This document shows positions 35,852 to 56,325 of a DNA stretch of 64,000 nt, in pieces. Every line of letters starts with the position of its first letter. Within the stretch, counting starts at the first letter, position 1. The notes below the pieces were generated by a model. That model searched no databases, had not been told where the DNA came from, and was given only the letters and a program-made list of their open reading frames with translations. The position numbers and the translations under genes were made by a program. The DNA comes from an uncultured Desulfovibrio sp. (GTDB lineage Bacteria > Desulfobacterota > Desulfovibrionia > Desulfovibrionales > Desulfovibrionaceae), in assembly GCA_913060505.1 (NCBI GenBank), contig CAJXRQ010000016.1:1-64000 (forward strand), read 5' to 3'.

Positions 35852-35931
35852 AGGGAGTGCGGATTACATAAGCAACGATATTCCGGTCTCCGTGCCCGGA
35901 TACTACAAATGTGTTTCAAGGAGATGCAGTA

Positions 35932-38115
<2,184 letters not shown>

Positions 38116-38204: not shown

Positions 38205-40703
38205 TTACCCCCTGGATTCCGGAACCACATACCGGGTGGCTGGTCCCTTTCCTACCTTTTGCAGCATGTCCTTGCCCACAAACTCATTCAAATCGTAATT
38301 GGCCGTGCGTGGCGAAAGATTACCGCCAACAAGTTCCTGATACTCGCTCCGGGAAATGCCGCCACGTTTGCGAATAACTGCCCACGCCTTTTCCTGCCGG
38401 GGGTTCAATCCCAAGTTGTTCTGACGCGGAGCGGAAACCGGAATATCCTCTTTCACACCATCGTTGTCAGCTTCATTCTTCTGGAACTCTGCGCCCATGC
38501 CGGATGCCGATTCCCCTTCAAGTCGAATCTCCTCGGCCTGAATGACATCGGTTTCTGCCATGACTCCGGCACGGGTGATACTGTTCACCAGTTCCCGGAT
38601 ATTGCCAGGCCAAGAATACCCGGACAATTTACGTAGTGCACCTTTGCTCAGTTCCAACGAGCCTTGTCCGGTTAACTGCTCAGCTTGATGCAGATAGTGC
38701 AACGCCAGCAACGGAATGTTTTCCGGGTGTTCCCGCAATGCAGGAGTATGGATGGAAACAACCTTGAGCCGATAATAAAGATCTTCACGGAACAGACCGT
38801 CCTCAATCATTTCGGAAAGGTCAACGTTGGCCGCGGCTATGATACGCACATCCACGGGAACTTCCGTATCACTGCCCAGAGGCTTGATCTTGCGAATGGA
38901 CAAAGCGCGCAACAGCGATTGCTGAACCTTGGGCGAAGCTGATTGTACTTCATCCAGGAAAAGCGTACCGGACTCCGCTTCCTGAAAAGCACCGTTACGA
39001 TCATTCCGGGCTTCCGTGAATGCTCCCTTCACATGGCCGAACAAGGCATCCAACAACAAATTCTCATCCAACGCGCCGCAATTGATCGAAATGAATGGAC
39101 CATCCTTGCGCGAACTTTGACTGTGGATAGCTTCCGCTACCAGCTGCTTGCCCGTCCCGGTTTCCCCGGTAACAAGTACATCCACCTCCACTTGCGCGGC
39201 CTTGAGCACGTCATTTTTTAACTCGGTCATACGCGCACCAACACCGATAATGTCCGGCAACACACTCAAACGTACTTCATCCAGAAGGGCCTGTTCCTCG
39301 CAAAGGTCGACCGGTTCCCGCAAATTGACATTCAGAATGGCTTCATCCTTTTCGTGAATCTCCACCATCTGTCGGCTGATGCGACGAACCAAAGCGTTCA
39401 CGGAGTTTTTGAGTTCCTCTATGTCTCTGCCGCCATAAGGAATGGAGACTTCTTCAAGCGCTTCGACTTCATGCAGGGAATTCAGCTTCTCGGAAAGTTG
39501 CCGGATCGGGGAAGTAAGTTTTCTTCCCAACCACCAAATCAACATGGCTATAAGCGCAATGACCACCACGGTGACCACAAGCATCACATCAAGATAGCGG
39601 TAGCCGGCAACAACAGGTAAAATACTGCGGTCCACGCGAACACAAGCGCCATAAACAATGTCACCGCGGGTTCCGCCCTCGTGAAATACGATTGGGGCAA
39701 AGGCAAAAAAATAGTCGTTCACGGTTGAGGATGTTTCGGAGTCCTGAACGCGGACCAACCCGTTTTCTCCCTTTCTCACCTTATCCAGCATCACCCAGTA
39801 ACGGGTATGTTTGGCGTTCGGTCTGAACGCGCAACGCAATCCCGGTCGCCCGAGTGTTCCTTGATATCCCGACCGCGCTATGGACGTTGCCAGCTCGACT
39901 TCACTCTTTTGACGATTTGAGGATTCAAACAACATCCATCCATCGGTGTCCGTCACGAAGTCAAAACGCAATTCCGCACTGCGGGGAAAGGCCTTCAGAG
40001 GAGAATCCTCCGAATTGTAGAGCGAAAGAACGTTCCGAAGATCTGCAGCACGAACCGAAATCATGAGCAACCCATCATGATCAGCATCACGCATTCTGTA
40101 TGGGGTCACAAACCTGACGACCTGTTCTCTTACCATGGCATTGCCCACGCCTTGCGCAGGCATGGGGTATTCCACCTCGGCAATCTTTGAAATCCAGACC
40201 TGTCCCGGCTGCAAGTCTGCATGGTCACTTAACAGCAGCAGCGGATTCGGTTGTATGCGTGCAAACTGCCGTTCGTTCAAAACAGTTGTCTCACCATCTT
40301 TGCGAAACAACGCAATGTGATTTTGCCCACTGGGAGCAAGGTAAACAAATTCCAAATACATGTTACCGCCCGCTGCGGCCTTGTCTTCGATAAAATCACG
40401 CATAACGTCCTTGTTCAAAGATTCTTGCGCAGCAAACAACAAATCCTCTCGGACCTGATTCAAATAATGCTCCACTTCATTGGCCACAGCGACGTTCCGC
40501 AAACGAATGGACCGCTCCAGCGCAGTATGGATGTAATGGCTTGATACACTATAGTTGGCCAGCCCGGCAGCCAACAAAGTAATGATTACGGAAGGGATCA
40601 AAGCCGCCATAAGCCTTCCGCGCAGGCCAAGTCTCGACCAGAAAAATTTCCGAACCAATGGCGAACTGTTGGGGTTCTCTCCGACTTTCTCAGCTTCGTG
40701 CAT
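38205..40703 (-). CDS. Membrane-bound sigma-54 activator (sensor-HAMP-AAA+-winged helix)
   Basis: The protein is 832 residues from ATG 40703, preceded by GGAGG. TM1 is at about 31-50, a large Cache-like periplasmic sensor at 52-365, TM2 at 370-390, then HAMP. The AAA+ domain (about 485-720) has Walker A GETGTGKQ, Walker B GTLFLDEV and the arginine-finger region FREDLYYRL. The sigma-54 contact loop reads GAFTEA instead of GAFTGA. The C-terminus lacks the usual Fis-type helix-turn-helix; it ends in a winged-helix-like domain (RQEKAWAVIRKRGGISRSEYQELVGGNLSPRTANYDL, positions about 765-828). It is divergent from a Cache kinase with a sigma-54 promoter. I infer that it drives that kinase and the operon beyond. 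Confidence 0.9.
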   Translation of the reverse strand: MHEAEKVGENPNSSPLVRKFFWSRLGLRGRLMAALIPSVIITLLAAGLANYSVSSHYIHTALERSIRLRNVAVANEVEHYLNQVREDLLFAAQESLNKDVMRDFIEDKAAAGGNMYLEFVYLAPSGQNHIALFRKDGETTVLNERQFARIQPNPLLLLSDHADLQPGQVWISKIAEVEYPMPAQGVGNAMVREQVVRFVTPYRMRDADHDGLLMISVRAADLRNVLSLYNSEDSPLKAFPRSAELRFDFVTDTDGWMLFESSNRQKSEVELATSIARSGYQGTLGRPGLRCAFRPNAKHTRYWVMLDKVRKGENGLVRVQDSETSSTVNDYFFAFAPIVFHEGGTRGDIVYGACVRVDRSILPVVAGYRYLDVMLVVTVVVIALIAMLIWWLGRKLTSPIRQLSEKLNSLHEVEALEEVSIPYGGRDIEELKNSVNALVRRISRQMVEIHEKDEAILNVNLREPVDLCEEQALLDEVRLSVLPDIIGVGARMTELKNDVLKAAQVEVDVLVTGETGTGKQLVAEAIHSQSSRKDGPFISINCGALDENLLLDALFGHVKGAFTEARNDRNGAFQEAESGTLFLDEVQSASPKVQQSLLRALSIRKIKPLGSDTEVPVDVRIIAAANVDLSEMIEDGLFREDLYYRLKVVSIHTPALREHPENIPLLALHYLHQAEQLTGQGSLELSKGALRKLSGYSWPGNIRELVNSITRAGVMAETDVIQAEEIRLEGESASGMGAEFQKNEADNDGVKEDIPVSAPRQNNLGLNPRQEKAWAVIRKRGGISRSEYQELVGGNLSPRTANYDLNEFVGKDMLQKVGKGPATRYVVPESRG

Positions 40704-40740
40704 TGTAAACGCCTCCGGATTATTTACTCCCACCATATCT

Positions 40741-40760
40741 CGCAATTATTGCGCAACAAA
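40741..40760. promoter_or_regulatory. Candidate upstream activator site 1
   Basis: A perfect inverted repeat CGCAAT-T-ATTGCG (40741-40753) is embedded in ATTGCGCAACAAA (40748-40760). The same 13-mer with one change occurs before the second sigma-54 promoter. It lies 57 bp upstream of the -24 box of the kinase gene and 38 bp upstream of the activator start, so it could serve activation in one direction and autoregulation in the other. Confidence 0.5.
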
Positions 40761-40816
40761 TAAAATGTCAACGAGCACATACTTTTTCTCCGGTGCCAAA
40801 AACAAAAAAACGCGCA

Positions 40817-40832
40817 TGGTACAAGCATTGCA
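40817..40832 (+). promoter_or_regulatory. Sigma-54 promoter of the Cache kinase gene
   Basis: TGGTACAAGCATTGCA agrees with TGGCACRNNNNTTGCW at all but the fourth base. It is 86 bases upstream of the kinase ATG, a spacing similar to the perfect promoter at 42736, and shares an upstream motif with it. Confidence 0.65.
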
Positions 40833-40917
40833 AAATATCGTCCACAAACATGAACGCGCACACGCAAAATGCGACATCCAGCATTGAAACTGTACGCAAA
40901 AGCGCGGAGAGAAGCGG

Positions 40918-42588
40918 ATGCAATCCGATATGTACACGGACGTACGCAAAAGACTTTTGACTGTAATGATTCTAGTCCCACTGATACCATTCGCCGCATC
41001 CTTGGCGATTGGATACAGCTCCTACAAATCATCCATGCGGCAGGCAGCACTGGAGCGGGCCGAACGCATTGCGGACAGTCACGCAGCTCTGATCGGCTCT
41101 TTCCTCAATGAACGAAAAACCGATCTCGACGTGATTCTCGCAACCATCGGGGAGCAGCATCTGGCCAGCCCCGGGCGGCTCGCATCCATTCTGGCATCGC
41201 TACAACGAACATCCTTGGCTTTCATAGATCTCGGACTCACTAATCAGGACGGATTGCAGGTGGCATATGCAGGGCCTTTCGATCTGACAGGAAAAAACTA
41301 CAAACAATCAAAATGGTTCAAGCAGACATGCGCCCACGGCAGTTTCGTGAGCAGTGTCTACATGGGATACCGGCACCAACCCCATTTCGTCGTTGCGGTA
41401 ATGGCCCGGCAAAACGGCGAGTCGTGGATTCTTCGCGCCACAGTGGATCAGGATCTTTTCGGCAATCTTGTGGAAGGAGTCAGCATCGGGGCCACAGGCG
41501 AAGCATATATCGTAAACGACCTTGGAGAATTGCAGACGGAAAAGCGTTCTGGTGGAGCATTATTGGAAAAGGAACAGGGCCTTGTACCGACAATTTCCCA
41601 GAACGCCAAAAGCAGTGGAACGTTCGGACAATTCATATATGCAACCACTCCGCTCAATAACAACATGTGGCGATTGGTGGTTCGCCAAAACACCAGTGAA
41701 GCTCTGCAAGAATTGGATTGGGCTGCCCTGTGTATCGCCGTGGTCAGTTTACTTGGCGGCGGATTCATTCTGATTCTCGCATTCACGGTCAGCAACAGAC
41801 TCATTCACATGCTGCACAGCAAGGAGCACGAACGGGTTGAAATGGAAACGCACCTCATGCGCGCTGCGCGGTTGGCAGAACTCGGTGAGATGTCCGCCGG
41901 ATTCGCGCATGAAATCAACAACCCCTTGCAAATCATGAAAAGTGAAATCGCGCTCATGGAAATGGTCTCGGAAGAAGCGGGGATGGATGCCCCCATTCAG
42001 GAAGAACAGAAAGCCACAATATTGGATGGATTGCATCAACTGGGAAAACAAATTGACCGTTGCGCTTCCATCACCCGTTCCATACTCAAATTCGGCCGTC
42101 ATACCGGCCCCGAGATCACAGACGTCAACCTTTCCGAGTTTCTGCCAGAGCTTTGCGAAATAACCAAACGAAAGGCCGAAGTGTCGGGAATTGAATTCTC
42201 ATGCTCGGTTCCTGAAGGAATCCCGACAGTTCGACTCGATGCCGGGCAACTGCAACAGGTAATGCTCAACCTGATGAATAACGCCATTCAGGCCATTGAA
42301 GAACGCCATGGCAATGAAGGCGGTCAACTCAAAGTAGCCGTAAAAAAAACGGACGAAAACCATATAAAACTACTGGTGCAGGACAACGGCAAGGGAATAC
42401 GTTCTGAAAATCTGGAACGCATATTCAATCCGTTCTTCACCACGAAGCCTCCGGGAAAGGGAACAGGGCTTGGACTTTCCATTTGCCATGCCATCATTGA
42501 TGCCATGGGCGGTATCATGGAAGTATCAAGCGCCAGAAACAAAGGGACATCTTTCACCATTTCACTGCCAATAAAGGCTGTCGGCTAA
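40918..42588 (+). CDS. Cache-domain membrane histidine kinase
   Basis: This protein has 556 residues. TM1 is at about 13-33, a periplasmic Cache sensor at 40-262 (FIDLGLTNQDGLQVAYAGPF, SSVYMGYRHQPHFVVAVM), TM2 at about 267-290. The core has ELGEMSAGFAHEINNPLQI with His331, the N box NLMNNAIQAIEE, DNGKGIRSENLERIF and GTGLGLSICHAI. This is the NtrB-like HisKA type without a receiver. It is clearly paralogous to the kinase at 50056: the same layout and shared phrases such as FIDLG, YMGYR/FMGFR with PHFxxAV, and GESWILRAT/GERSWVLRAT. It has its own sigma-54 promoter and terminator. The four receivers downstream are the obvious partners. Confidence 0.92.
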   Translation: MQSDMYTDVRKRLLTVMILVPLIPFAASLAIGYSSYKSSMRQAALERAERIADSHAALIGSFLNERKTDLDVILATIGEQHLASPGRLASILASLQRTSLAFIDLGLTNQDGLQVAYAGPFDLTGKNYKQSKWFKQTCAHGSFVSSVYMGYRHQPHFVVAVMARQNGESWILRATVDQDLFGNLVEGVSIGATGEAYIVNDLGELQTEKRSGGALLEKEQGLVPTISQNAKSSGTFGQFIYATTPLNNNMWRLVVRQNTSEALQELDWAALCIAVVSLLGGGFILILAFTVSNRLIHMLHSKEHERVEMETHLMRAARLAELGEMSAGFAHEINNPLQIMKSEIALMEMVSEEAGMDAPIQEEQKATILDGLHQLGKQIDRCASITRSILKFGRHTGPEITDVNLSEFLPELCEITKRKAEVSGIEFSCSVPEGIPTVRLDAGQLQQVMLNLMNNAIQAIEERHGNEGGQLKVAVKKTDENHIKLLVQDNGKGIRSENLERIFNPFFTTKPPGKGTGLGLSICHAIIDAMGGIMEVSSARNKGTSFTISLPIKAVG

Positions 42589-42615
42589 CTTCCACGGTCG
42601 ACAACTCCTCCCCTG

Positions 42616-42650
42616 GGCGGTGCTCTCATAGAGAGCGCCGCCTCTTTTTT
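42616..42650 (+). terminator. Rho-independent terminator after the Cache kinase
   Basis: GGCGGTGCTCTC and GAGAGCGCCGCC pair over 12 bp (one G-T) around a 3-base loop, followed by TCTTTTTT. It separates the kinase gene from the next operon. Confidence 0.92.
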
Positions 42651-42665
42651 GTGACACCAGGAGAG

Positions 42666-42686
42666 TGCGAAAAATTGCGCGACAAA
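42666..42686. promoter_or_regulatory. Candidate upstream activator site 2
   Basis: ATTGCGCGACAAA (42674-42686) matches site 1 at 12 of 13 bases and is preceded by a less perfect dyad half (TGCGAAAA). It ends 50 bp before the -24 box, within the range usual for sigma-54 activators. Confidence 0.5.
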
Positions 42687-42735
42687 CCTATATCGCATTA
42701 TTAAATAAGATACTAAAATAATTGTATAAAAATTA

Positions 42736-42751
42736 TGGCACACGCATTGCT
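42736..42751 (+). promoter_or_regulatory. Perfect-consensus sigma-54 promoter of the nine-gene operon
   Basis: TGGCACACGCATTGCT fits TGGCACRNNNNTTGCW at every defined base. Transcription would start near 42762, about 80 bases before the first receiver's ATG at 42843. It also shows that the open frame continuing upstream to 42735 cannot be the coding start. Confidence 0.85.
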
Positions 42752-42842
42752 TTTAGAGAAAGAACAACACACGACCTTGCAAGAAAAAAAGGCTTTCAGA
42801 CCAAACAATGAGACAAAAAAATCGAAAGCAGGTTGGAGCAAC

Positions 42843-43256
42843 ATGACAACGGAAATGATGACCATTCTTTTGGTGGACGATGAGGAACGCCTCCTCGAAA
42901 CCACGAAAAAGCTGTTTGAAAAAATGAACATTCAGGTTTTCACCGCGCAAAGTGGCCAGCAGGCCCTGAACATGGTGGAGACTCATGGTGTGGACGTCAT
43001 TTTCCTGGATGTAAAAATGCCGGGGTTCGACGGAATGCAGACTCTTCGGGAGATCAAGAGAATCAATCCTCTGGCGGAAGTCATCATTCTAACCGGGCAT
43101 GCGACGATGGAAGATGCTGTGGAAGGACTCAAACTTGGCGCAATGGACTTTCTCATCAAGCCGCTGAGCATGAAGGAAATGCTCAAAAAGGCAGAGGAAG
43201 CGTTCGAAAAAGTCAAACGCCACAGCGTTCTGCTGCAATCGATGAAAAAGGACTGA
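42843..43256 (+). CDS. Single-domain response regulator (receiver 1 of operon)
   Basis: This 137-residue receiver has no output domain: ILLVDDEERLLE, phospho-acceptor Asp in VIFLDVKMPGFDG, Thr in IILTGHA, Lys in FLIKPL. The start ATG 42843 follows TTGGAG. It is the first gene after the perfect sigma-54 promoter. It belongs to a set of four paralogous receivers in the operon that share a KM(P/G)G loop and LTGHA/G strand. Without a DNA-binding domain it must act by protein contact or serve as a phosphate relay or sink. Confidence 0.92.
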   Translation: MTTEMMTILLVDDEERLLETTKKLFEKMNIQVFTAQSGQQALNMVETHGVDVIFLDVKMPGFDGMQTLREIKRINPLAEVIILTGHATMEDAVEGLKLGAMDFLIKPLSMKEMLKKAEEAFEKVKRHSVLLQSMKKD

Positions 43257-43307
43257 GAATTTCTGAGGCACGGGCCTTGGGAGGCACATCAATTGAGGAG
43301 GCATCAT

Positions 43308-44207
43308 ATGTCGAAGATACGGATTCTCATGGTCGATGACGAGGAGCGCTTCCGTACCATCACGTCCAAAATACTCGAACGAAAAGGTTTCGAGACCATT
43401 GTGGCCGAAAGTGGTGAGTTAGCGCTCGAGAAATTGTCCGAATCGCCGGACGTCGTGGTTCTTGACATGAAAATGGGGGGAATGGACGGCCATGAAACCC
43501 TGCGGGAGATCAAGAAACTACATCCCAATCTTCCGGTCATCATGTTGACCGGTCACGGAGCAAAACCCAGCGCACAACAGGCGTTGGATGAAGGTGCGTT
43601 CGATTATCTGGCCAAGCCGTGCGATATAGATCTGCTCGCGGCCAAAATTCAGGATGCCCTGCTGGACAAAGGAGATACTCCCCGCAGAGAAAAACTGGTC
43701 CGGGACATCATGATTCCGGTTTCCAGTTACACGTCCATCTCGGAAGACAGCACAGTAAAGCAGGCCATCGCAGAGTTGGAAAAGATGCAACGTTCATTGC
43801 AGGCAACGAACCGCCTCATGGATACCGGACATCGCTCCCTGCTTGTTTTCGGCAAGAACGGCGAACTTGCCGGAATTCTTTCGCCTCGGGATCTCATTCG
43901 AGCAACACGCCCCGCGTACCTTTCGGCTCCAAGACCTTCCATGGCGGACACCCTGCAATATTCCACCATGTTCTGGGAGGGACTGTTTTCCAGCCGCGTT
44001 CGCGAAATCATGAACCTTGAAGTTGCCGAGGTTATGTCCGGGCGGCCGCCGCAGATCGATGCGGACACGAACCTGATGGAAGCCGCAGACGCCATGTCCA
44101 ACGAACGACGCAGGCGTGTGGCGGTAATGGAAAACGGCAGAATCATCGGCGTAGTCCGGGAACAGGAACTGTTCTACGAGATTGCGTCCATCATCTCCAA
44201 CAGCTGA
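43308..44207 (+). CDS. Response regulator with a CBS-domain pair
   Basis: The protein is 299 residues from ATG 43308 behind GAGGAGG. The receiver (1-125) has LMVDDEERF, VVLDMKMGGMDG (Gly where Pro is usual) and YLAKPC. The remainder (about 130-299) is a tandem CBS module: VRDIMIPVSSYTSISEDSTVKQAI ... LLVFGKNGELAGILSPRDLI and EVMSGRPPQIDADTNLMEAADAM ... VAVMENGRIIGVVREQELF. CBS pairs (Bateman modules) bind adenine nucleotides, so this could join phosphorylation and energy state. It lies directly before the DASS transporter gene, 36 bases away; regulation of that transporter is a reasonable guess. Confidence 0.92.
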   Translation: MSKIRILMVDDEERFRTITSKILERKGFETIVAESGELALEKLSESPDVVVLDMKMGGMDGHETLREIKKLHPNLPVIMLTGHGAKPSAQQALDEGAFDYLAKPCDIDLLAAKIQDALLDKGDTPRREKLVRDIMIPVSSYTSISEDSTVKQAIAELEKMQRSLQATNRLMDTGHRSLLVFGKNGELAGILSPRDLIRATRPAYLSAPRPSMADTLQYSTMFWEGLFSSRVREIMNLEVAEVMSGRPPQIDADTNLMEAADAMSNERRRRVAVMENGRIIGVVREQELFYEIASIISNS

Positions 44208-44243
44208 CGGCTGCCAGACTTCGAACAGGAAAAGAGGTACTCA

Positions 44244-46100
44244 ATGTCCCAAGCAAAGAATACCAAAAAAGCTACCGGTTACGACAAATATGTCGACTGG
44301 AAGCTTTTCGCCATACCAGTCGTATTGTTTTTTGCCATCCTCGTCCTGCCGACTCCAAGCGGCATGAAGCGTGTTGGCACACAGTACCAGGTCGGTCCCA
44401 AGAAAGTTATCAGTTTTCTGTGTGAAGAACTCTTCCAGAAAAGTAGTTCCGACACCGAACAGTGGCAATTGCTCACCGCCCAGATGATGGAACGCAACAT
44501 GCGCATGGGCGCGTTAACTCGGGACCGTTTCATGAAACGAAGCGCCAAGTGGTGCAAAAAGTATAAGATTTCTACCACAGATACCAACCTCAAACGGGCG
44601 AAAAATTATGTTCAGGAAAATCTCACGCCCGAAAAATTCAATCAAATCATGAAGGCCAGCTTCGATTTGCGCATGAAGAAGCTCAACTACGACTCGCTCT
44701 CGGGCAAAGACAAGACGATGGCCGACAAGGGAGCCTGGCACATCAAGGTCGCCATAGCCATGGTCGTATTTGTTGTCTTTTGCTTCATGACAGAGTGCAT
44801 TCCCCTGCCGGGCGTGGCATTCTGCATCGGGCTGATTCTAGTATTCGCCGGAGTGGTTACGCGCAAGCAGGTGGCCATGTTCTACTGGTCCGATGCCGTC
44901 TGGTTCATCATGGGGTCGCTCATGTTTGCCGCAGCGTTCGTCAAGACCGGGGTGGACAAACGAATGTGCCTGCTCATGTTCAAAAAGCTGGCGGTCCCCA
45001 ACGTACGATGGATCACGCTCATATTCTTCCTTGTGATCTCGCCGCTGGCTGCATTCATCTCGGACCACGCACTGGCTGCAATGTTCCTGCCCATCGGTAT
45101 GCTGCTCTATCAAAACAGTCTTACCGAGGAAATTCCCGAGGACAAGGAACTGGCGAAAATGCTCATGATCGCCATTGCCATGGCCTGTAACATCGGTGGT
45201 CCTGGCGCACCTTCCGGCGGCGCACGAAACGTAATCATGATGACTTACCTCACGGATATGTTCGGCTTCGACATCGGATATTTCCAATGGGTCACCTACT
45301 GCTTTCCGTTCGTAATCGTCATGATACCGATTACATGGTTGGCAGTTAACACACTCTTTAAGCCCCGCATCAAGTCGCTTGCCCCGGCAATGCGCCACCT
45401 TGAGAATGAAATAGGCAAGATGGGCAAGTGGAACAGAAACCAGATTTGGGCCGTTATCATCTTCATAGTCATGGTTTGGGGATGGTTCACAGAAAAGATC
45501 TTCTTCAACATGGGCATCTATCCCGTGCGTCTGGGAATCGGCGTCATTGCGGTTGCCGGTGCCGTGGCATACCTGTTGGCCGGTGTTGTCAACTGGCGCG
45601 ACTATCATGAAAAGGTCGACTGGGGTGTGGTCTGGCTCTATGCAGGTGCCATCATCTTCGGGCGCACTTTGGATAGCACTGGCGCTGCATACTGGCTGGC
45701 CGACTCCGTAGTCAACCTGCTGGCACCATTCGGTATGGATCAAGGTCTGCCGCTGATGCTGACTTCAAACGGATTGACGGCAGTGCTCACCAACCTCATG
45801 GCAGACGGACCAGCTGCAGCGGCTGTAGGCCCCATCACCTTGAACATGGCAGGCATCGTCCATCCGGGCACGACATTCCTGCCCTTCATGGCTATGGCCA
45901 CGGCTATCGCATCGTCCTTCGCATATTGCCTTATCATAGGCACACCGCCCAACGCCATCGTCTATGCTTCCGGATATCTGGAACCCAAGGACTATCTGCG
46001 CGTGGGCATTCCCATGTGGTTTGTAGCAAACATCGTCGTGATACTGGTCACGGCCGTGTATTGGGCTTGGCGAGGATTCAGCGGATTGCCGGGATTCTGA
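44244..46100 (+). CDS. DASS (SLC13) family sodium/anion symporter with an inserted soluble domain
   Basis: This 618-residue membrane protein has about 11-12 helices. The first is at about 19-38 (LFAIPVVLFFAILVLP). Then comes a non-hydrophobic stretch of about 125 residues (40-165), rich in Lys, Met and Phe (MMERNMRMGALTRDRFMKR, ENLTPEKFNQIMKASFDLRMKK), before the family core starts at GAWHIKVAIAMVVFVVF. Core marks: TECIPLPGVAFCIG, FISDHALAAMFLPIG, NIGGPGAPSGGARNVI and the C-terminal GTPPNAIVYASGYL, which holds the second substrate-binding hairpin. DASS carriers import sulfate, di- or tricarboxylates. The substrate here is not readable. The insert is not part of the usual 450-500-residue DASS protein. 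Confidence 0.92.
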   Translation: MSQAKNTKKATGYDKYVDWKLFAIPVVLFFAILVLPTPSGMKRVGTQYQVGPKKVISFLCEELFQKSSSDTEQWQLLTAQMMERNMRMGALTRDRFMKRSAKWCKKYKISTTDTNLKRAKNYVQENLTPEKFNQIMKASFDLRMKKLNYDSLSGKDKTMADKGAWHIKVAIAMVVFVVFCFMTECIPLPGVAFCIGLILVFAGVVTRKQVAMFYWSDAVWFIMGSLMFAAAFVKTGVDKRMCLLMFKKLAVPNVRWITLIFFLVISPLAAFISDHALAAMFLPIGMLLYQNSLTEEIPEDKELAKMLMIAIAMACNIGGPGAPSGGARNVIMMTYLTDMFGFDIGYFQWVTYCFPFVIVMIPITWLAVNTLFKPRIKSLAPAMRHLENEIGKMGKWNRNQIWAVIIFIVMVWGWFTEKIFFNMGIYPVRLGIGVIAVAGAVAYLLAGVVNWRDYHEKVDWGVVWLYAGAIIFGRTLDSTGAAYWLADSVVNLLAPFGMDQGLPLMLTSNGLTAVLTNLMADGPAAAAVGPITLNMAGIVHPGTTFLPFMAMATAIASSFAYCLIIGTPPNAIVYASGYLEPKDYLRVGIPMWFVANIVVILVTAVYWAWRGFSGLPGF

Positions 46101-46120
46101 CCATAGCCGCCATGATACTG

Positions 46121-46143
46121 GGGCGGCGGTTCTGCCGCCGCCC
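46121..46143 (+). promoter_or_regulatory. Intercistronic hairpin after the transporter gene
   Basis: GGGCGGCGG and CCGCCGCCC form a 9-bp all-GC stem with a 5-base loop and no U run. Within an operon this is more likely a message-stabilising or processing element than a terminator. Confidence 0.65.
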
Positions 46144-46173
46144 AAACCACCATCAGATCGGGAGCAAAAAGAT

Positions 46174-46341
46174 ATGTTCAAACCACTGGAAGATAAAACC
46201 GCAAAGCAAATACATCATGAACATGGTGTGACCTACTTCAGCCGCAGAATGGAGCGCACCATATTTTTCATCATGACCGTCGGCATGCTTCTCTGGGGAT
46301 TCTATGAAAAATTCGTAGCAACAGGGACTCTTGGAGGATAA
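46174..46341 (+). CDS. Small single-helix membrane protein (55 aa)
   Basis: An open frame from ATG 46174, with GGAG nine bases upstream, encodes MFKPLEDKTAKQIHHEHGVT, then SRRMERTIFFIMTVGMLLWGFYEKF and a short tail. One membrane helix spans about 29-49, preceded by a positively charged stretch, so the N-terminus should be cytoplasmic. Its last codons contain the ribosome binding site (GGAGG) of the next gene, whose start follows four bases after the stop. That tight fit supports real translation. It is easily missed because of its size. I infer a subunit or regulator of the adjacent transporter or Yip1-like protein. I do not recognise a family. Confidence 0.75.
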   Translation: MFKPLEDKTAKQIHHEHGVTYFSRRMERTIFFIMTVGMLLWGFYEKFVATGTLGG

Positions 46342-46345
46342 GGCC

Positions 46346-46909
46346 ATGACCACGGCAACGTCACAAGCAGCATCTTCGACACGGGCAATTTCAGTAAGGG
46401 AATACCTCGATACGTTAGTGGGAATCATTCGCTCGCCGTCTGCTTTCTACAAAAGCGTGCAACTGGAGCAGGAGACACGCAAGGCACTTACATTTCTCCT
46501 GATATCATCCGTATTTCATGCGACAGTCAGCATGTCCTACTTCTATGAGAATTCGCTGCTCATGGGAGGCATCTACCTGCTCAACGACATATTCATGCCC
46601 GTTCTTGCCGCGGTTTTTTCCTTTTTACTGGCTGGCATGCTGCAAAGCAGTTCAACCGCCTTTCTACGCATACTCTCCATATATGCCTATGCTTCAGGGG
46701 CTATCATGGTAATCTCCTGGATTCCTTCACTGGGAATGATTCTGGAGCCAATACGGGCAGTACTCGTAATCATAGGGCTGAAAAAAGCCTGCGATATCGG
46801 CTGGATCAAGGCCATCTTCATCGTAGCATGTTCCGGCCTGCTCTTGTTGGTCTTCTTCTGGAGCATTGCCCCGGTATTATCAACAATGAAAACAATGTTC
46901 TTTACATAA
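46346..46909 (+). CDS. Yip1-domain-like integral membrane protein
   Basis: The 187-residue product begins at ATG 46346 behind TTGGAGG. EYLDTLVGIIRSPSAFYKSVQLEQETRKALTFLLISSVF is the typical entry of bacterial Yip1 family proteins (membrane association after an amphipathic segment with PxxFF-like spacing). Four to five membrane helices follow. The bacterial members have no established function. The position between the transporter and the phosphotransferase makes a membrane scaffold or accessory role likely, but that is inference. The last 20 residues are hydrophobic without a soluble tail. Confidence 0.75.
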   Translation: MTTATSQAASSTRAISVREYLDTLVGIIRSPSAFYKSVQLEQETRKALTFLLISSVFHATVSMSYFYENSLLMGGIYLLNDIFMPVLAAVFSFLLAGMLQSSSTAFLRILSIYAYASGAIMVISWIPSLGMILEPIRAVLVIIGLKKACDIGWIKAIFIVACSGLLLLVFFWSIAPVLSTMKTMFFT

Positions 46910-46956
46910 CGGGCAAACAAATTTTGCACCCGGACAAGCCGCAATGCGGCACGGTA

Positions 46957-47002
46957 CGGTCCTGCCGGGTTTCCTCTCACCCTGCAATCCCCGGCAGGAC
47001 CG
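46957..47002 (+). promoter_or_regulatory. Second intercistronic hairpin, before the receiver-phosphotransferase part
   Basis: CGGTCCTGCCGGG (46957-46969) and its exact complement (46990-47002) form a 13-bp stem with a 20-base loop and no U run. It divides the membrane part of the operon from the phosphorelay part. Confidence 0.65.
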
Positions 47003-47028
47003 CCCAACAGGGGTAAAAGGAGTAAATC

Positions 47029-47409
47029 ATGACAACTTTGCAGCTGTTGCTCGTGGACGATGAGCAGGATTTCCTGACCTATGCATCTCGTCGGTTCAAG
47101 CGCAGAAATGTGGAAACACATACAGCAATCAACGGACCGGAAGCGTTGTCCATGCTTCGGGAACAGCACTTTGATGTCATGGTTCTGGACATGAAAATGC
47201 CAGGAATGGACGGCCTTGAAGTGTTGGAACAGGCCCTGAAGGAGTCTCCCGACACAAGAGTCATTCTCCTTACCGGCCATGCCAGCACGGAAGCGGCCGT
47301 TCGCGGAATGGCGTTAGGGGCGTTCGAATATCTTCTGAAACCGCTGCAATTTGAAGAGCTCTTTTTCAAGGTAGTGGAAGCTGGCAGGAGTGCGCAGGCA
47401 GCACAATGA
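47029..47409 (+). CDS. Single-domain response regulator (receiver 3 of operon)
   Basis: This 126-residue receiver has LLLVDDEQD, Asp in VMVLDMKMPGMDG, VILLTGHAS and YLLKPL; AAAGGAG precedes the ATG. There is no output domain. It lies 16 bases in front of the PEP-synthase-like phosphotransferase gene, so that protein is its most likely target. It is closest in wording to the other operon receivers. Confidence 0.93.
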   Translation: MTTLQLLLVDDEQDFLTYASRRFKRRNVETHTAINGPEALSMLREQHFDVMVLDMKMPGMDGLEVLEQALKESPDTRVILLTGHASTEAAVRGMALGAFEYLLKPLQFEELFFKVVEAGRSAQAAQ

Positions 47410-47425
47410 ACTCAGGGTGAATACG

Positions 47426-50059
47426 ATGAAAATTCTCAAGACCATCGGGGATATTGTAAACCGCAGAAACATACACCTCAAGGCGCAACAGGCGCCGAAA
47501 GTGAATGCCATGGTTCAGCGATGCGAATCCTTTCGTCAGCTACTGTCTGCAAACCATGCGGCTTTGGAGACCATGTCCGACATGGGGGATGCCCTGAGCG
47601 GATTACGTCCTCTGGACATGACCTATGTCCGATCCCGTTGCGTTAGTGCTGTAGCCTCGGTAAGCCGAATGGTCCAAGCCCTGCGTTCCATGAACCCCGG
47701 TCCATATGATGAACTTTCCCCGAGGCTGCGGGATATTGCCGAATCCATTGACAAACTGATCCATGCCACTCCTTACACGCCTACGGATGGGCCAATGATT
47801 CTTCCCCTTTCGGAAGTGGAACATCGCCCGGATCTGGCAGGCCCGAAAACAACCACTCTTGTCCGGGCAAGCAAGGAACTTGGCCTGAATGCTCCGGAAG
47901 GATTCGTATTCACGGCAGAAGCATATCGGGCCTTCATGAACCACGGCCTGCGGGAAGAAATAGAACGCCTGTGCATGGCGACGGAAGCGGATGATCTTGC
48001 AGGACTCTACACCCTTTCCGCACGCATAACCCAACATATCAACACCACTCCCCTTCCTCCGCAGCTGCACAAACAACTGCAAACCATGCTCGAAAACCGG
48101 CCACCAGCCCGCTATGCAGTCCGAAGCAGTGCTCTGAATGAAGATGCGGCCGGAACTTCCTTTGCAGGCCAGTACCGTTCCATCCTCAACATAAGTCCTG
48201 AGGGTATCGCGGACGCCTATCGAGAAGTGGTGGGAAGCGCATTTTCGGCAACGGCCATGAGTTACCGACGCAATCAGGGCCAACGTGATGATGAAACCGT
48301 CATGTGCGTGGCCTGCATGGAAATGGTGGATGCGGAGGTCGGCGGCGTCATCTATACACGAGATCCGCTCGGACAGGATCAATCCAACATGCAAATACAT
48401 GCGGTCCCGGGCCTGCCCGCTTCCATTGTGGATGGGGCGTGCACGCCGGACACATGGGCTGTTGATACCCAAAAAATGACTGTCACCCATCGGCATATTG
48501 CAGATAAGCAATCCATGCGCCGCTGTCTCAAGAGTGAGGGGACGTATGTGGAACTGATTCCTCAGGGGCAGGGAAAAATTCCATGCATGAAAACAAGCAA
48601 AGTCTTGCAACTTGCGCGCATAGGGCTACGTCTGGAACATTTTTTCAAGGGGCCGCAGGATATCGAATGGGCAGCCACCCGAGATAAAATAGTCATACTG
48701 CAATGCCGTCCTCTTGAAATCAGGACACAAGGCTGTGTCGGGACATCCGAATCCGTAACTGGGGCCATTATCCAAGGCGGTATAACCGCCAGCCCCGGCA
48801 CAGCCGCGGGTCCACCCCATGTCGTAAAAGGTGAAGTGAACCTGCTCGACATGCCACGTGGGGCCGTCCTGTTGACTGATCAGGCGCATCCGGCCTGGGC
48901 AGTGAGTCTGGACCGCGTCTCGGCCATTGTTGCCGAACATGGTAGCACGGCCGGACATCTGGCTAATGTTGCCCGGGAATTCAATGTACCCGCGATTTTC
49001 GGTATTCCCAACGCTGTCAGCAAGCTTTCCGGGCACAAGATGGTGACAGTGGATGCCACGCAATGCGCCGTTTTTCCGGGCTATCGAATGCAAACTCCCG
49101 AGCCGGAAAAGGGCCCCCCCCCACTCATGGCCAAAAGCCCGGTCATGCGTTGTTTGCGTGAAGCGATGGATCACATTATACCACTCAACCTGACAAATGC
49201 ATCATCCCGGGGGTTTTGCCCTTCCCGATGCAAGACGCTGCACGACATCACCCGCTTCTGTCATGAAATGGGGGTCAATGAAATGGTCAAGGTTGATCAG
49301 AATCTTTCGGATAATGCGGCCCGGCGTCTGGTCACGGACATTCCCACCCGCTACTGGGTCATCGACATGGGCAACGGCATGGAAGCTACAAACCAAAAGA
49401 CCGTGACCCTTGATCAAATATACTCGCTGCCTATGCTGGCCCTCTGGCACGGCATGAATGCAAAGCCATGGCAAGGCCCACCACCACCCACGCCGGGCGG
49501 TTTTCTTTCCGTAATAATGGAAGCCTCGGCAAATCCGGCTTTGGCTCCAGGGGCGTACAACGACATGGGGACGCGCAATTTCTTCATTATCGGCCCACGT
49601 TATTGCAACCTGCAATCCCGCTACGGTTTTCATTTCAGCACGGTGGAAGGACATGCAGGTCCATTCCCTGATGAAAACTATGCATATTTGCAGTTCAAGG
49701 GAGGCGGAGCATCGCCCGACAGGAGAAAAATGCGTGCGGAAATGGTGCGCGGCATACTGAACCGCAAGGGATTTCTGGCCACGGCCAAGGACGATGCGGT
49801 GTTTGCCCGCATGGAAAACGAAACCGCACAAGAGATATTGCGGGGCATGATGATCCTCGGCCACATCATCATGCATACCCGGCAGCTGGACATGGATATG
49901 AACAGCCCGGAAGACGTAAAACGGCACGAACAACGCCTGCTCGCTGAACTGCTTGAAATCCTCGCTCCCTGCAACTGTCCGGAGCCATGGCGGAAAACTC
50001 CTCCCCCCACAACCTCGCCCCAGGCTCCGGACACAGGGGGAAAGGGACAATCCTCATGA
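47426..50059 (+). CDS. PEP-synthase-like phosphotransferase (ATP-grasp plus swivelling His domain, no PEP barrel)
   Basis: The protein is 877 residues from ATG 47426. Region 1-125 is helical and unrecognised. Region 130-430 is the PPDK/PEP-synthase ATP-grasp domain, with RYAVRSSALNEDAAGTSFAGQY at 229-250, EVGGVIYTRDP and the GPQDIEWA ... ILQCRPLE end. Region 445-540 is the PEP-utilising mobile domain, with AEHGSTAGHLANVAREFNVPAIFG and phospho-carrier His511. The PEP/pyruvate-binding TIM barrel that should follow is absent; instead about 330 residues (545-877) without a known signature contain TRYWVIDMGNGMEATNQK and RNFFIIGPRYCNLQSRYGFHFS. This resembles rifampin phosphotransferase in principle: ATP to His to an unknown acceptor. 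The stop overlaps the next kinase (ATGA). Confidence 0.85.
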   Translation: MKILKTIGDIVNRRNIHLKAQQAPKVNAMVQRCESFRQLLSANHAALETMSDMGDALSGLRPLDMTYVRSRCVSAVASVSRMVQALRSMNPGPYDELSPRLRDIAESIDKLIHATPYTPTDGPMILPLSEVEHRPDLAGPKTTTLVRASKELGLNAPEGFVFTAEAYRAFMNHGLREEIERLCMATEADDLAGLYTLSARITQHINTTPLPPQLHKQLQTMLENRPPARYAVRSSALNEDAAGTSFAGQYRSILNISPEGIADAYREVVGSAFSATAMSYRRNQGQRDDETVMCVACMEMVDAEVGGVIYTRDPLGQDQSNMQIHAVPGLPASIVDGACTPDTWAVDTQKMTVTHRHIADKQSMRRCLKSEGTYVELIPQGQGKIPCMKTSKVLQLARIGLRLEHFFKGPQDIEWAATRDKIVILQCRPLEIRTQGCVGTSESVTGAIIQGGITASPGTAAGPPHVVKGEVNLLDMPRGAVLLTDQAHPAWAVSLDRVSAIVAEHGSTAGHLANVAREFNVPAIFGIPNAVSKLSGHKMVTVDATQCAVFPGYRMQTPEPEKGPPPLMAKSPVMRCLREAMDHIIPLNLTNASSRGFCPSRCKTLHDITRFCHEMGVNEMVKVDQNLSDNAARRLVTDIPTRYWVIDMGNGMEATNQKTVTLDQIYSLPMLALWHGMNAKPWQGPPPPTPGGFLSVIMEASANPALAPGAYNDMGTRNFFIIGPRYCNLQSRYGFHFSTVEGHAGPFPDENYAYLQFKGGGASPDRRKMRAEMVRGILNRKGFLATAKDDAVFARMENETAQEILRGMMILGHIIMHTRQLDMDMNSPEDVKRHEQRLLAELLEILAPCNCPEPWRKTPPPTTSPQAPDTGGKGQSS

Positions 50060-51720
50060 CCCGGTTGAACAGAAAATACGAATCACTCCGGCTCAAGCTC
50101 ATGGGAATCACATTATGCTTCGCACTGATTCCTTTTGGCGTATTGGGTCACTTCATCCATTCCCAGTTCAGCACGACACTGCAGGAAAATATATCCGGAA
50201 ACCTCCGACTGGTCGTCAGCAACAAGCGTGATACCATAGACATGTTCCTTAACGAACGTATCAGCCAGCTCAAAAATCTGGCATACTCGTATGACTTCAG
50301 GACCATAACCGACACAAAACGGCTGGCACGCATTTTTGAAACCATCCAATCCAATTCAGGATCGTTCATAGACCTCGGAATCATAGACAGTATGGGCAAC
50401 CACGCGGCGTATGTGGGACCGTATGCCTTGCACAAGTTCAACTACGCCCGGGAATCATGGTTCCACAAAGTCATGCTCAAAGGCGTATTCATCAGCGATG
50501 TCTTCATGGGGTTCAGAAATTTTCCGCATTTCATTATTGCGGTGCGGCGTCAGGAAGGGGAACGAAGTTGGGTGCTTCGGGCCACCATAGACTCCGATAT
50601 TTTCACGACGCTGGTGCGTAGTGTGCAGATGGGACGCAAGGGGGATGCATTTCTGGTCAACACCAAAAGAATCCTTCAAACCAAGTCCAGATTTGCCGGT
50701 CCTGTTCTCTCCGAAACATTCCTGCCCGTCCCGGCAATCAATAATGATGTTGCGGTGGTGGAATGGAAGGATCGAAACGATGCCATGATCGCAGGCGTGG
50801 CAAGGCTTCGGCATACTGACTGGCGGCTTGTGGTGGCACAATCGCCGACCGAAGATATTTCTCCACTCGTCAAAACCCAGTCCATAACATTCGGCCTGAT
50901 CGCGCTCGGCATGCTCATGGTCCTCGGCGCATCATACCTGACCACAGGTTCCCTGTTGAAAAAACTTATGCAGGCCGAAGAAGAAAAAGCTCGTATGGAC
51001 GCTTCGGTCATGCAAGCCAACAAAATGGCGTCGCTGGGAAAACTGGCGACAGGGGTGGCCCATGAGATCAACAATCCCTTGACCATTATCCGCGAGGGGG
51101 CCGGCTGGATACGCGATATCATCACGGACGGAGAACTGGGCGATTCACCGGCGGTGGATGAACTGGTCGAAGCCGTGAACGACATTGACCGTCATGTTGA
51201 ACGGGCCCGCACCGTAACCCATCGCATGCTCGGCTTTGCCCGTCGAATGGAGCCGGTTCAGGAAGATGTCGATATCAACGCACTGGTGCGGCAAACTGCC
51301 GACTTCCTGAAAAATGAAGCGCTGCACCGCAACATAGAAATCGTTTTTCATTTCGATGACGAACTGCCGGGTATCACCACGGACGCAAATCAATTACAGC
51401 AGGTCATACTCAATCTCATGGAAAATGCATTGGACGCCATCACGCGGGACGGCATTCTCACTGTTCAGACCTGCGAACACAAAGATTATGTACAACTATC
51501 CGTTACCGACTCCGGGCCGGGCATTCCAAAAGAAAACCTGGGCAAGGTTTTCGACCCTTTCTTCACTACCAAGCCGGTAGGAGAAGGCACCGGGCTCGGC
51601 CTGTCCATCATATACTCCACAATGCAACGGCTGGGGGGAAACGTCACGGTGAACAGCCCGCCCGGGCAAGGAGCCACTTTCACAATAACATTGCCGATCC
51701 TGCCGGGGAATACAGAATAA
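50056..51720 (+). CDS. Cache-domain membrane histidine kinase, paralogue of the one at 40918
   Basis: The protein is 554 residues from ATG 50056, which overlaps the phosphotransferase stop by four bases; an earlier ATG at 49987 would extend deep into that gene. TM1 is at about 14-34, the periplasmic Cache at 40-275 (FIDLGIIDSMGNHAAYVGPYAL, SDVFMGFRNFPHFIIAVRR), TM2 at 278-300. The kinase core has LGKLATGVAHEINNPLTII with His336, NLMENALDAI, DSGPGIPKENLGKVFDPFFTTK and GTGLGLSIIYS. There is no receiver; one is encoded 27 bases downstream. The two Cache kinases may read the same or related ligands. Confidence 0.93.
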   Translation: MTRLNRKYESLRLKLMGITLCFALIPFGVLGHFIHSQFSTTLQENISGNLRLVVSNKRDTIDMFLNERISQLKNLAYSYDFRTITDTKRLARIFETIQSNSGSFIDLGIIDSMGNHAAYVGPYALHKFNYARESWFHKVMLKGVFISDVFMGFRNFPHFIIAVRRQEGERSWVLRATIDSDIFTTLVRSVQMGRKGDAFLVNTKRILQTKSRFAGPVLSETFLPVPAINNDVAVVEWKDRNDAMIAGVARLRHTDWRLVVAQSPTEDISPLVKTQSITFGLIALGMLMVLGASYLTTGSLLKKLMQAEEEKARMDASVMQANKMASLGKLATGVAHEINNPLTIIREGAGWIRDIITDGELGDSPAVDELVEAVNDIDRHVERARTVTHRMLGFARRMEPVQEDVDINALVRQTADFLKNEALHRNIEIVFHFDDELPGITTDANQLQQVILNLMENALDAITRDGILTVQTCEHKDYVQLSVTDSGPGIPKENLGKVFDPFFTTKPVGEGTGLGLSIIYSTMQRLGGNVTVNSPPGQGATFTITLPILPGNTE

Positions 51721-51747
51721 CCATGTTTCCAAAAAACGGAGAACGTC

Positions 51748-52170
51748 ATGGAGCAAAACATTCGCGTACTGGTTGTCGATGATGAAAAACGTTTTCGTGA
51801 CAACATCGTAAAAATACTGAACAACAAAAGCATGGAAGCGCAGGGCGCAGAGGATGGCGAACAGGCATTGGCTATGACCGAGGCCGAAAAGTTTGACGTG
51901 ATCCTTCTGGACATGAAAATGCCAGGAATATCCGGCAAGGAAACCTTGCACCACCTGCAACAAAACGGAACTGATGCCGAGGTCATCGTACTGACGGGGC
52001 ATGCTTCTGTTTCCGGCGCTCTGGACATGATGGAACTCGGAGCATTCGACTATCTGCTCAAACCGGCTCCTGTTGACGACCTCTTGAAAAAAGTACGGTT
52101 GGCAGGAGAAAAAAAATTTCTTCGGGAGGGACGAATCGGGATGCAGGATATTTTGTCTGCCGGCACATGA
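51748..52170 (+). CDS. Single-domain response regulator (receiver 4 of operon)
   Basis: This protein has 140 residues: VLVVDDEKRFRDN, Asp in VILLDMKMPGISG, VIVLTGHASVSG, YLLKPAP. A short basic tail (GEKKFLREGRIGMQDILS) follows the receiver and could bind a partner. It comes directly after the second Cache kinase, which makes it that kinase's first-choice substrate. It is the last gene of the sigma-54 operon as I read it; no clear terminator follows, only weak dyads near 52233-52250 and 52285-52300. Confidence 0.92.
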   Translation: MEQNIRVLVVDDEKRFRDNIVKILNNKSMEAQGAEDGEQALAMTEAEKFDVILLDMKMPGISGKETLHHLQQNGTDAEVIVLTGHASVSGALDMMELGAFDYLLKPAPVDDLLKKVRLAGEKKFLREGRIGMQDILSAGT

Positions 52171-55300: not shown

Positions 55301-55414
55301 GATTTTACAAAAGCCCTGTCCTTCTACCTGTTGCGCCACCGCGACTACCTCTTGGAATTGCAACGATACGGCGTGAAGAATTCCCAACAGGACGTAGGTA
55401 TGCATGCAATTTAA
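52376..55414 (+). CDS. Large membrane protein of unknown family (1012 aa)
   Basis: It starts at GTG 52376 behind GAGGAG. Residues 1-620 are soluble. Within them, ATHLMMDAWVKGIRNLTVIHYNHVDQ and AAEILDMKVRIGIEFQALFRGRFVRMAW (about 170-235) look like consecutive strands of an alpha/beta barrel of PHP type, but the metal-binding His clusters are not evident. Residues 665-860 hold about six hydrophobic helices (LLKILLGFIPAFLTFYLT, WILTYLGGIIWFSITGI, IALTNGVYVTGHNLF, ALGMNFALGLALTLAGH). The final 150 residues are soluble and helical. I do not recognise a family, though similar proteins may occur in other Desulfovibrio. It lies 205 bases behind the sigma-54 operon, so co-transcription is uncertain. 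Confidence 0.85.
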   Translation: MHLRQLYFDKNDYRLLEILNDVIDRKFDHSQLKILLTPYLRPHGIKELAASQGLRIAYAIAHLLNSLKSSQAPERLKALAALRDEAFASSIGNLRLNRARVLIQIAKELIRAKGQPEVQLRLAHDFRKVACGKPHFLRSQLRKYHLLEMPEEWNQITFDDRVHDANSKGRKSATHLMMDAWVKGIRNLTVIHYNHVDQSVASELFAAAEILDMKVRIGIEFQALFRGRFVRMAWSPRRLQEENDVETFFRRESVQSLMKDGRQAQQRHTDYVMAVVEAFNTTHRKSIEQEFGVLLPPIETQAMRKWVGCGQPSLLHLGKYIHQLAMPLFRSRTEELAKQYANADYDGQARIAMQVESMNSLDADTIIARYLDPPVNGDIPTPDMPGTLSELPPLLRLSAGELVERLHEVSESDRLALLLEDLHMEDVLEILYQCKGRINHLQMFNIKSMPEDWIKDRLPFNELQRALNHQNAVALKRILRDTLVRLQQSKRPDAGERIAAMRHILNDFETLRAHYRHTRLKTSIGTGSTGQSSRNIGMGIAVRETLPGSAQKELHHRPALECLPAEISTTQILEFVPPAPGSGFLGKAIQKASTIPILRMLLCTVKSRWRITDIQVTDSACGNLATLGGFTSEPDNELHLEHENTPETERVPFEYLNSFSINLLKILLGFIPAFLTFYLTQDWWILTYLGGIIWFSITGIRNIIQAVLGGGGFHRSPYLPWNEYVSWDRIADSLLYTGISVPLLDWMCKTLLLKQQFGIDTSTAPLMLYTIIALTNGVYVTGHNLFRGFPRSAAFANFFRSVLSVPIALGMNFALGLALTLAGHADVNATLQLWAAVISKLASDCVGAVIEGLADRGQNISTRQWDYAKKIAQVLEVFSRMEVLFPNKNMLELMKNPKEFIDFSRKQDTDFASIVIANALDLLYIRYYQPRATEALNKALQAMTGEEKEIVLASQLILKQDREVARLFVDGLVGRDFTKALSFYLLRHRDYLLELQRYGVKNSQQDVGMHAI

Positions 55415-56199: not shown

Positions 56200-56325
56200 T
56201 AGTGGTCTCCTGTATTCTGTTGTTTTGTGCCCAAGCAATTACAATTCAATCCGATCTGAATCAAATACAAATATGACAAAACAATGCTGATGCGCCGCAA
56301 TCAATTCTCAAGGATATAAAACAAG

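Follow-up and report, generated by a model that had tools for sequence, protein, structure and literature searches.

How the uptake of sulfate, the first respiration step of sulfate-reducing bacteria, is controlled is an open question, and the abstract of PMC5840216 (2018) could still state that no study had identified the sulfate-uptake proteins of these organisms. The closest described system is that of PMC11887813 (2025), whose main text presents a DASS-type sulfate-transporter cluster found in 26 species, for example Desulfosarcina variabilis 3be13 (Dvar_38230, Dvar_38430), with sulfate-sensing kinases, WalR-type regulators acting at promoters in a PhoRB-like manner and CBS domains sensing adenylates. 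A likeness of another kind is offered by DVU0151 of Desulfovibrio vulgaris, a one-component enhancer-binding protein (EBP) with DVU0150-DVU0146 as its target operon, according to the sections of PMC4641369 on this EBP and its target. Here we analyse a stretch of 64,000 nucleotides (the window) from an uncultured Desulfovibrio sp. (contig CAJXRQ010000016.1), in which positions 38205-52170 hold eleven genes that encode a sigma-54 activator, two Cache kinases, four receivers, a DASS carrier, two further membrane proteins and a protein related to pyruvate phosphate dikinase and phosphoenolpyruvate (PEP) synthase (PPDK-like). The best explanation of the whole, which we regard as rather probable, is a conserved anion-uptake system, most likely for sulfate, in which receivers gate the carrier.

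The original prediction for this locus knew of no described system of such composition, a claim that is not supported, since the core fits the cluster of PMC11887813 and the activator fits the DVU0151 type. The core, matched by composition and not by sequence, is therefore probably not undescribed, and a copy of the cluster is common to many sulfate-reducing bacteria. Judging from the main text of PMC11887813, both clusters place a DASS carrier beside two-component genes, Cache kinases and a CBS protein, and genome G234 has two DASS carriers in one cluster of this type. That text names no sigma/RpoN, Yip, dikinase or 'pyruvate phosphate' in its cluster, and its regulators act at promoters, whereas the window receivers have no DNA-binding domain. 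As for the activator, which is likened to DVU0151 by description and not by sequence, the two share the absence of a receiver, a long N-terminal region, a winged helix (putative in the window) instead of Fis and a transport target. The loop that reads GAFTGA in sigma-54 EBPs is GAFTEA in the window activator and GAFSEA in DVU0151, a variant counted as functional in PMC4641369, whose sections on the EBP and its target do not call DVU0151 membrane-anchored, unlike what is predicted for the window activator. The locus numbers of the DVU0151 orthologue Dbac_2039 and of a DASS gene, Dbac_2041, differ by two. What is added here is (i) the layer made of sigma-54 and a membrane activator, (ii) receivers without output domains, (iii) receiver-carrier fusions, (iv) the 55-residue and Yip1-like partners and (v) the link to the PPDK-like family.

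Conservation and transcription of the gene set

All eleven open reading frames (ORFs) of the cluster are real and have the domains originally assigned to them, as established from the ORF list and Pfam, with a few corrected starts (see below). They form one real and conserved unit, beyond chance by both conservation and promoter counts, and the genome search for co-occurrence that the original prediction had proposed bears out its view of the eleven genes as one system. The carrier with its insert is found in 25 of 199 genomes of the family, including the window's own, the other 24 having it at 76-91% identity. Sequence stretches around the carrier were fetched in 25/25 genomes and searched with the window proteins by tblastn, a count standing for a match anywhere in the fetched stretch and not for strict adjacency. 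The activator, kinase 1, receiver 1, the CBS receiver, the carrier insert and the 55-residue protein were each matched in 25/25, the Yip1-like and PPDK-like proteins in 24/25. Receivers and kinases may cross-match their paralogues, so kinase 2 was counted only at an identity of at least 48%, which it reaches in 22/25 genomes (28-31% in G036, G024 and G031). In ten genomes (L038, L046, L053, L080-L085, L092) the first 20-kb stretch ended at a gene for a 1012-residue protein, and further stretches placed kinase 1 and the activator beyond that gene in 10/10. Outside the family, a search of 297 genomes of the phylum found carriers with the insert at 71-78% identity and a second group at 53-56%. 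Around 14 window-type carriers from outside the family, on stretches several of which stop at contig ends, we found the CBS receiver 13 times, a Cache kinase 11 times, the Yip1-like protein seven times, the 55-residue protein four times and the PPDK-like protein once (G234, L104).

The promoter counts and the features of the activator both support the idea, already present in the original prediction, that transcription is handled by sigma-54 promoters and an adjacent membrane activator. We scanned for TGGCACN5TTGCW with GG and GC fixed, a hit being a match at 10 or more of 11 scored positions, and shuffled sequences gave means of 0.05-0.28 and a maximum of 3. Such elements lie upstream of 15/30 kinase-1-type genes (0.15 in shuffles) and 25/44 receiver-1-type genes (0.28 in shuffles), as against 0/39 CBS receivers, 0/40 carriers, 0/31 Yip1-like genes, 1/25 receivers 3, 0/24 PPDK-like genes and 0/23 kinases 2. 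Counted per genome with a stricter assignment, they precede kinase 1 in 17/25 and receiver 1 in 19/25. The cluster thus consists of two transcription units, the adjacent units that had been predicted. The activator has an AAA+ sigma-54 interaction domain (PF00158, 208.9 bits, E 5e-62) and, by hydropathy, two hydrophobic segments (45-63 and 385-403), and is therefore probably anchored in the membrane with a sensor region between them. Its layout runs from a transmembrane (TM) segment over a long region to the second TM segment, a HAMP-like linker recognised by eye, the AAA+ domain and a C-terminus that may be a winged helix, judging from its likeness to the description of DVU0151. This last region, which no Pfam model matched, was found in 20/25 genomes, the five misses being stretches that end inside the gene or at its end. 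In relatives of the activator the loop reads GAFTEA, GAFSEA, GAFSDA, GAYTEA, GAFTDS or GAFTQA. Activator paralogues also occur near other PPDK-like genes (L037:16308, L042:82, L070:1135, L073:1353); the real counterpart of DVU0151 may be among them.

Upstream of 36 promoters there are 48 TTGCG half sites, compared with 16.1 (standard deviation 3.8) in dinucleotide shuffles, and 5/36 promoter regions have TTGCG palindromes, compared with 0.1 in shuffles. The palindrome of the window, TCGCAATTATTGCGC, lies between the divergent activator and kinase 1 genes and is a candidate operator only, because the motif was defined post hoc, the sequences are related and 10/36 regions have no half site.

The carrier, its receivers and the PPDK-like protein

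The carrier scores over the cut-offs of its family (TIGR00785, 221.4 vs 198.6 bits; PF00939, 162.6 vs 27, E 2e-47) and aligns with VcINDY at E 7e-26 across residues 167-607. Its first hydrophobic segment spans residues 17-35 and the Pfam and VcINDY alignments begin at residues 167-170; between them lies the insert, which, going by DASS topology, we take to face the periplasm. Two SNT motifs form the substrate and sodium site of DASS/SLC13 carriers. The window carrier differs from VcINDY and from this family in both of them, in the first PPN motif and in its insert of about 125 residues after the first TM segment: the first SNT is SDH, the second is ADG and the first PPN motif has become GGARN. 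These changes are shared by the window-type rows (41 distinct sequences), with SDH in 45/45, ADG in 44/45 (a gap in the last row) and ARN in 45/45. The proline-260 sequences of PMC5840216 were considered as orthologues of the window carrier and dropped, their residue numbering not being reproducible.

Both kinases contain HATPase_c. In kinase 1, dCache_1 is over its cut-off (52.7 vs 45 bits) and HisKA just under (23.5 vs 26.9); in kinase 2, dCache_1 is under (29.9 vs 45) and HisKA over (31.8). The four receivers of the window consist, by Pfam, of Response_reg alone or of Response_reg with two CBS domains, and Pfam found no DNA-binding domain in any of the four, in line with what had been predicted. 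Around 40 carriers, 104 of the 109 non-CBS receiver ORFs within 9 kb are of 200 residues or fewer (median 144) and hence mostly too short, we infer, for a receiver plus a DNA-binding domain, the 109 being judged by length and not each scanned for output domains. A receiver tree was made from 150 sequences, that is, 139 of the 144 receivers encoded on the carrier strand within 9 kb plus 11 receivers fused to carriers (see below), over 120 columns. In this tree the CBS receivers are one group (38 rows, support 100/98), as are the receivers 3 (22 rows, selected by position before a PPDK-like gene) and the fused receivers (11 rows); receiver 1 is nearly one group (36/39 rows), and the deeper branching order is left open. 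The receiver groups are stable, each keeping its own operon place. In L124-L126 and L164-L168, CBS-only proteins of about 180-195 residues are found near DASS carriers in place of the CBS receiver; the CBS module may be exchangeable.

Nature has also joined receiver and carrier in a single polypeptide. Locus L106 encodes a 692-residue protein made of an N-terminal receiver and a DASS carrier, and fusions of this kind occur in 25 of 291 genomes of G234's class (22 full-length, 3 partial), spread across many of its families, and in G382 besides; Pfam found both Response_reg and Na_sulph_symp in 5/5 fusions tested. A window-type carrier lies beside the fusion in 7/16 fetched loci (L155, L156, L159, L162, L163, L167, L169) and also in L106. 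The gene order in L159 is kinase, fused carrier, receiver, kinase, receiver, carrier with insert, 55-residue protein, Yip1-like protein and CBS receiver. Of the window's four receivers, the CBS receiver is the nearest to all 11 distinct fused receivers compared (identity 0.38-0.46); a descent of the fused receivers from the CBS receiver was considered and dropped, the tree leaving their position open. A search confined to open-licence literature found no description of receiver-DASS fusions or of this cluster composition. Directly before the fusion, L106, L155, L159, L160 and L161 have a hybrid kinase, in which a Cache kinase carries an additional receiver (about 681-692 residues in all).

The PPDK-like protein has the PPDK_N and PEP-utilizers domains of Pfam without the PEP-binding barrel. 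Its ATP-grasp and phosphohistidine domains are common to PEP synthase and rifampin phosphotransferase, but where PEP synthase and PPDK have a C-terminal PEP/pyruvate barrel it has a C-terminal domain of its own. Numbered in the ORF from 47390, the phosphohistidine is His 523, kept in 68/75 aligned members, and the ATP-grasp residues R245 and R440 are kept in 75/75. The seven exceptions all come from loci without a window-type carrier; these paralogues (L041:14497, L043:15194, L045:14280, L047:9930, L052:14021, L055:2890, L067:7481) have R, N or Q for the phosphohistidine, and in six cases the locus has another PPDK-like gene that keeps the His, as if the paralogue were its inactive partner. 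Across 46 sequences, 21 columns of the C-terminal domain are invariant, among them HD..R..H, G.H, N, R, D and RQ.D. A profile of these 46 found no PDB match with an E-value limit of 10, the domain of the window protein had no match in Pfam beyond chance, and the 46 members matched only two weak Pfam families (2 and 1 members, best E 0.015). An AlphaFold2 model of this domain from two sequences (window, L097) reached a mean predicted local distance difference test score (pLDDT) of 36 and was not used, and PPDK-like ORFs of 1680 and 1833 residues were rejected as fusions, their starts being over-extended by eye.

The C-terminal family occurs in 141/199 genomes of the family (E<=0.001) and 107/297 of the phylum (E<=1e-15), commonly in several copies, and PPDK-like genes are often near Cache kinases and stand-alone receivers. 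Among 40 fetched PPDK-like loci without a window-type carrier, 12 have one and the same similarity cluster nearby (10 on the same strand), the representative of which is a TSUP carrier (PF01925). Because the family is widespread and found near TSUP carriers, the protein is better seen as an accessory to at least two carrier systems than as the orphan phosphotransferase it had been taken for. This links it to two families of anion carrier, DASS and TSUP, and the loci of the second kind are perhaps a parallel system built on another carrier family. In L063:6501, L065:5466 and related loci, where PPDK-like genes are near TSUP-type carriers, a 243-residue protein with two TM segments and of unknown family was seen in seven loci.

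Proposed mechanism and its rivals

We propose that the membrane-anchored AAA+ activator would set the amount of the system by driving the two sigma-54 promoters, of kinase 1 and receiver 1, a step well supported by sequence. The two Cache kinases would sense an external ligand and phosphorylate the receivers, and these, most likely the CBS receiver, would dock on the cytoplasmic side of the DASS carrier and gate it post-translationally, as the fusions suggest, with the CBS pair perhaps contributing a signal of adenylates or energy. Probable partners of the carrier are the two small or medium membrane proteins, the 55-residue one and the Yip1-like one, and the PPDK-like protein probably forms its phosphohistidine from ATP and hands the phosphate to an acceptor held by its C-terminal domain. 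Because natural receiver-carrier fusions exist, a direct action of the receivers on the carrier, which the original prediction had thought probable, is the best reading, and fusions are stronger evidence for it than adjacency. The best candidate for this control is the CBS receiver, whose gene immediately precedes that of the carrier, and gene order suggests that a receiver might also control the PPDK-like phosphotransferase. To the broader proposal that two-component signalling ends on a membrane carrier, with phosphorylated receivers (free in the window's family, fused to a related carrier in another class) opening or closing DASS anion carriers of a kind without the classical SNT site and the membrane activator alone handling transcription, we give an even chance. 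If true, sulfate respiration would be subject to control after translation at its very first step, and the fusions, which speak against a model confined to promoters, make the control of uptake directly testable.

A number of observations pull against this explanation, some of them concerning gating and others the substrate. Phosphorylation, receiver-carrier binding and gating are all deduced from sequence; the genomes of the window's own family showed no receiver-carrier fusion; the fused carriers come from a different branch of DASS and share 37% identity with that of the window in the transmembrane part; the tree places the fused receivers with no stand-alone receiver group; and the clusters of relatives also contain NtrC-type regulators (receiver plus AAA domains). 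Regulators of this last type would suit the model proposed in the main text of PMC11887813, in which the kinases sense sulfate, response regulators called WalR type act at the promoters of carrier genes in a PhoRB-like manner and the carrier itself is ungated. We find it improbable here, since the window receivers have no DNA-binding domain, nearly all the receivers near carriers are short, the promoters are of sigma-54 type with a one-component activator adjoining, and a receiver that is part of a carrier has no way to act at a promoter. The receivers could also serve as sinks for phosphate, or belong to a kinase network whose final targets lie elsewhere, the fusions doing no more than tethering a receiver to the membrane; competition is possible with four receivers and two kinases, but receiver groups that retain their operon places and a carrier fusion spread over so many families of one class make this unlikely.

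As for the substrate, both SNT motifs are lost, and therefore neither sulfate nor sodium coupling follows from membership of the family. Sulfate would be the most likely substrate by analogy with relatives, on which the literature is partly contradictory: one passage of PMC5840216 has HRM2_38230 and HRM2_38300 (group Cii) highly expressed at low sulfate, another has HRM2_38300 expressed with excess sulfate, and the low-sulfate data concern group Cii, to which the window carrier may belong. The window's own genome also has a SulP carrier. That another anion is transported, for example a dicarboxylate or a sulfonate, is favoured by the replacement of both SNT motifs and the first PPN motif, unlike in VcINDY, and we hold it possible though doubtful, given that the published DASS cluster is assigned to sulfate in the main text of PMC11887813 and that the first of the two passages just cited reports low-sulfate expression of group Cii relatives, even if the second says the opposite for HRM2_38300. 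The remaining alternative concerns the PPDK-like protein, which might be the phosphoryl donor of receiver 3 (ATP to phosphohistidine to Asp) and thus a new type of receiver kinase. Receiver 3 is encoded directly before it and has relatives that form one group (selected by that very position), all members from loci with a window-type carrier are among those that keep the phosphohistidine, and many other PPDK-like genes are near stand-alone receivers. It is nevertheless very unlikely in our eyes, because the invariant His/Asp/Arg-rich C-terminal columns look like a site for another acceptor, no receiver fusion was seen among the 75 PPDK-like ORFs and 7/75 members have no phosphohistidine.

Map of the locus and neighbouring genes

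Features of the cluster and its optional neighbour, with positions in the window
Feature	Position	Strand	Evidence
Predicted membrane-anchored sigma-54 activator (EBP)	38205..40745	-	Pfam PF00158, hydrophobic segments; matched in 25/25 family genomes with carrier
Candidate operator TCGCAATTATTGCGC	40740..40754	.	Lies about 77 bases ahead of kinase 1's -24 element
-24/-12 sigma-54 promoter of kinase 1, TGGTACAAGCATTGCA	40817..40832	+	Sequence
Sensor kinase 1 (dCache, HisKA, HATPase)	40918..42588	+	Pfam
TTGCGC, a candidate half site of an operator, ahead of the promoter of receiver 1	42675..42680	.	
-24/-12 sigma-54 promoter of receiver 1, TGGCACACGCATTGCT	42736..42751	+	Sequence
Receiver 1, no output domain	42843..43256	+	Pfam Response_reg; set of 36 receiver-1 rows in tree
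Receiver 2 with two CBS domains (304 residues)	43293..44207	+	Pfam; 38-row tree group
DASS/SLC13 carrier with insert of about 125 residues between TM1 and TM2	44244..46100	+	TIGR00785, VcINDY alignment, hydropathy
55-residue protein, one TM segment	46174..46341	+	tblastn E<0.05 in 25/25 family genomes
Yip1-domain membrane protein	46346..46909	+	PF04893; 24/25 family genomes
Receiver 3, no output domain	47029..47409	+	Pfam; 22-row tree group
PPDK/PEP-synthase-like protein: ATP-grasp, phosphohistidine domain, own C-terminal domain	47426..50059	+	Pfam
Sensor kinase 2 (dCache, HisKA, HATPase)	50056..51720	+	Pfam; at least 48% identity in 22/25 family genomes
Receiver 4, no output domain	51748..52170	+	Pfam; starred set of 22 tree rows
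1012-residue protein, C-terminal TM segments, optional neighbour	52376..55414	+	15/25 family genomes

Several starts deserve comment. Receiver 1 likely begins at ATG 42843 and not at the ORF start 42735, because the latter falls at a -24/-12 element that matches 11/11 scored positions. For the PPDK-like protein the most likely start is 47426, in which case it does not overlap receiver 3, and for kinase 2 it is 50056, where an ATGA overlaps the PPDK-like stop. The Yip1-like protein (PF04893, E 6e-8) likely starts at 46346, and the start of the activator is likely nearer 40736 or 40703.

The 1012-residue protein, for which Pfam had no match at E<=0.001 (one chance-level match at 0.017) and NCBIfam none at 0.01, is in relatives often encoded in inverted orientation between the genes for kinase 1 and receiver 1; it is also found near a PPDK-like pair in L055. 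On the other side, a type III glutamine synthetase (GSIII_N, E 7e-74) at 35911-38115 adjoins the cluster, and a small sulfite/nitrite reductase-like protein (NIR_SIR) is encoded downstream of it, at 55531-56238 on the minus strand.

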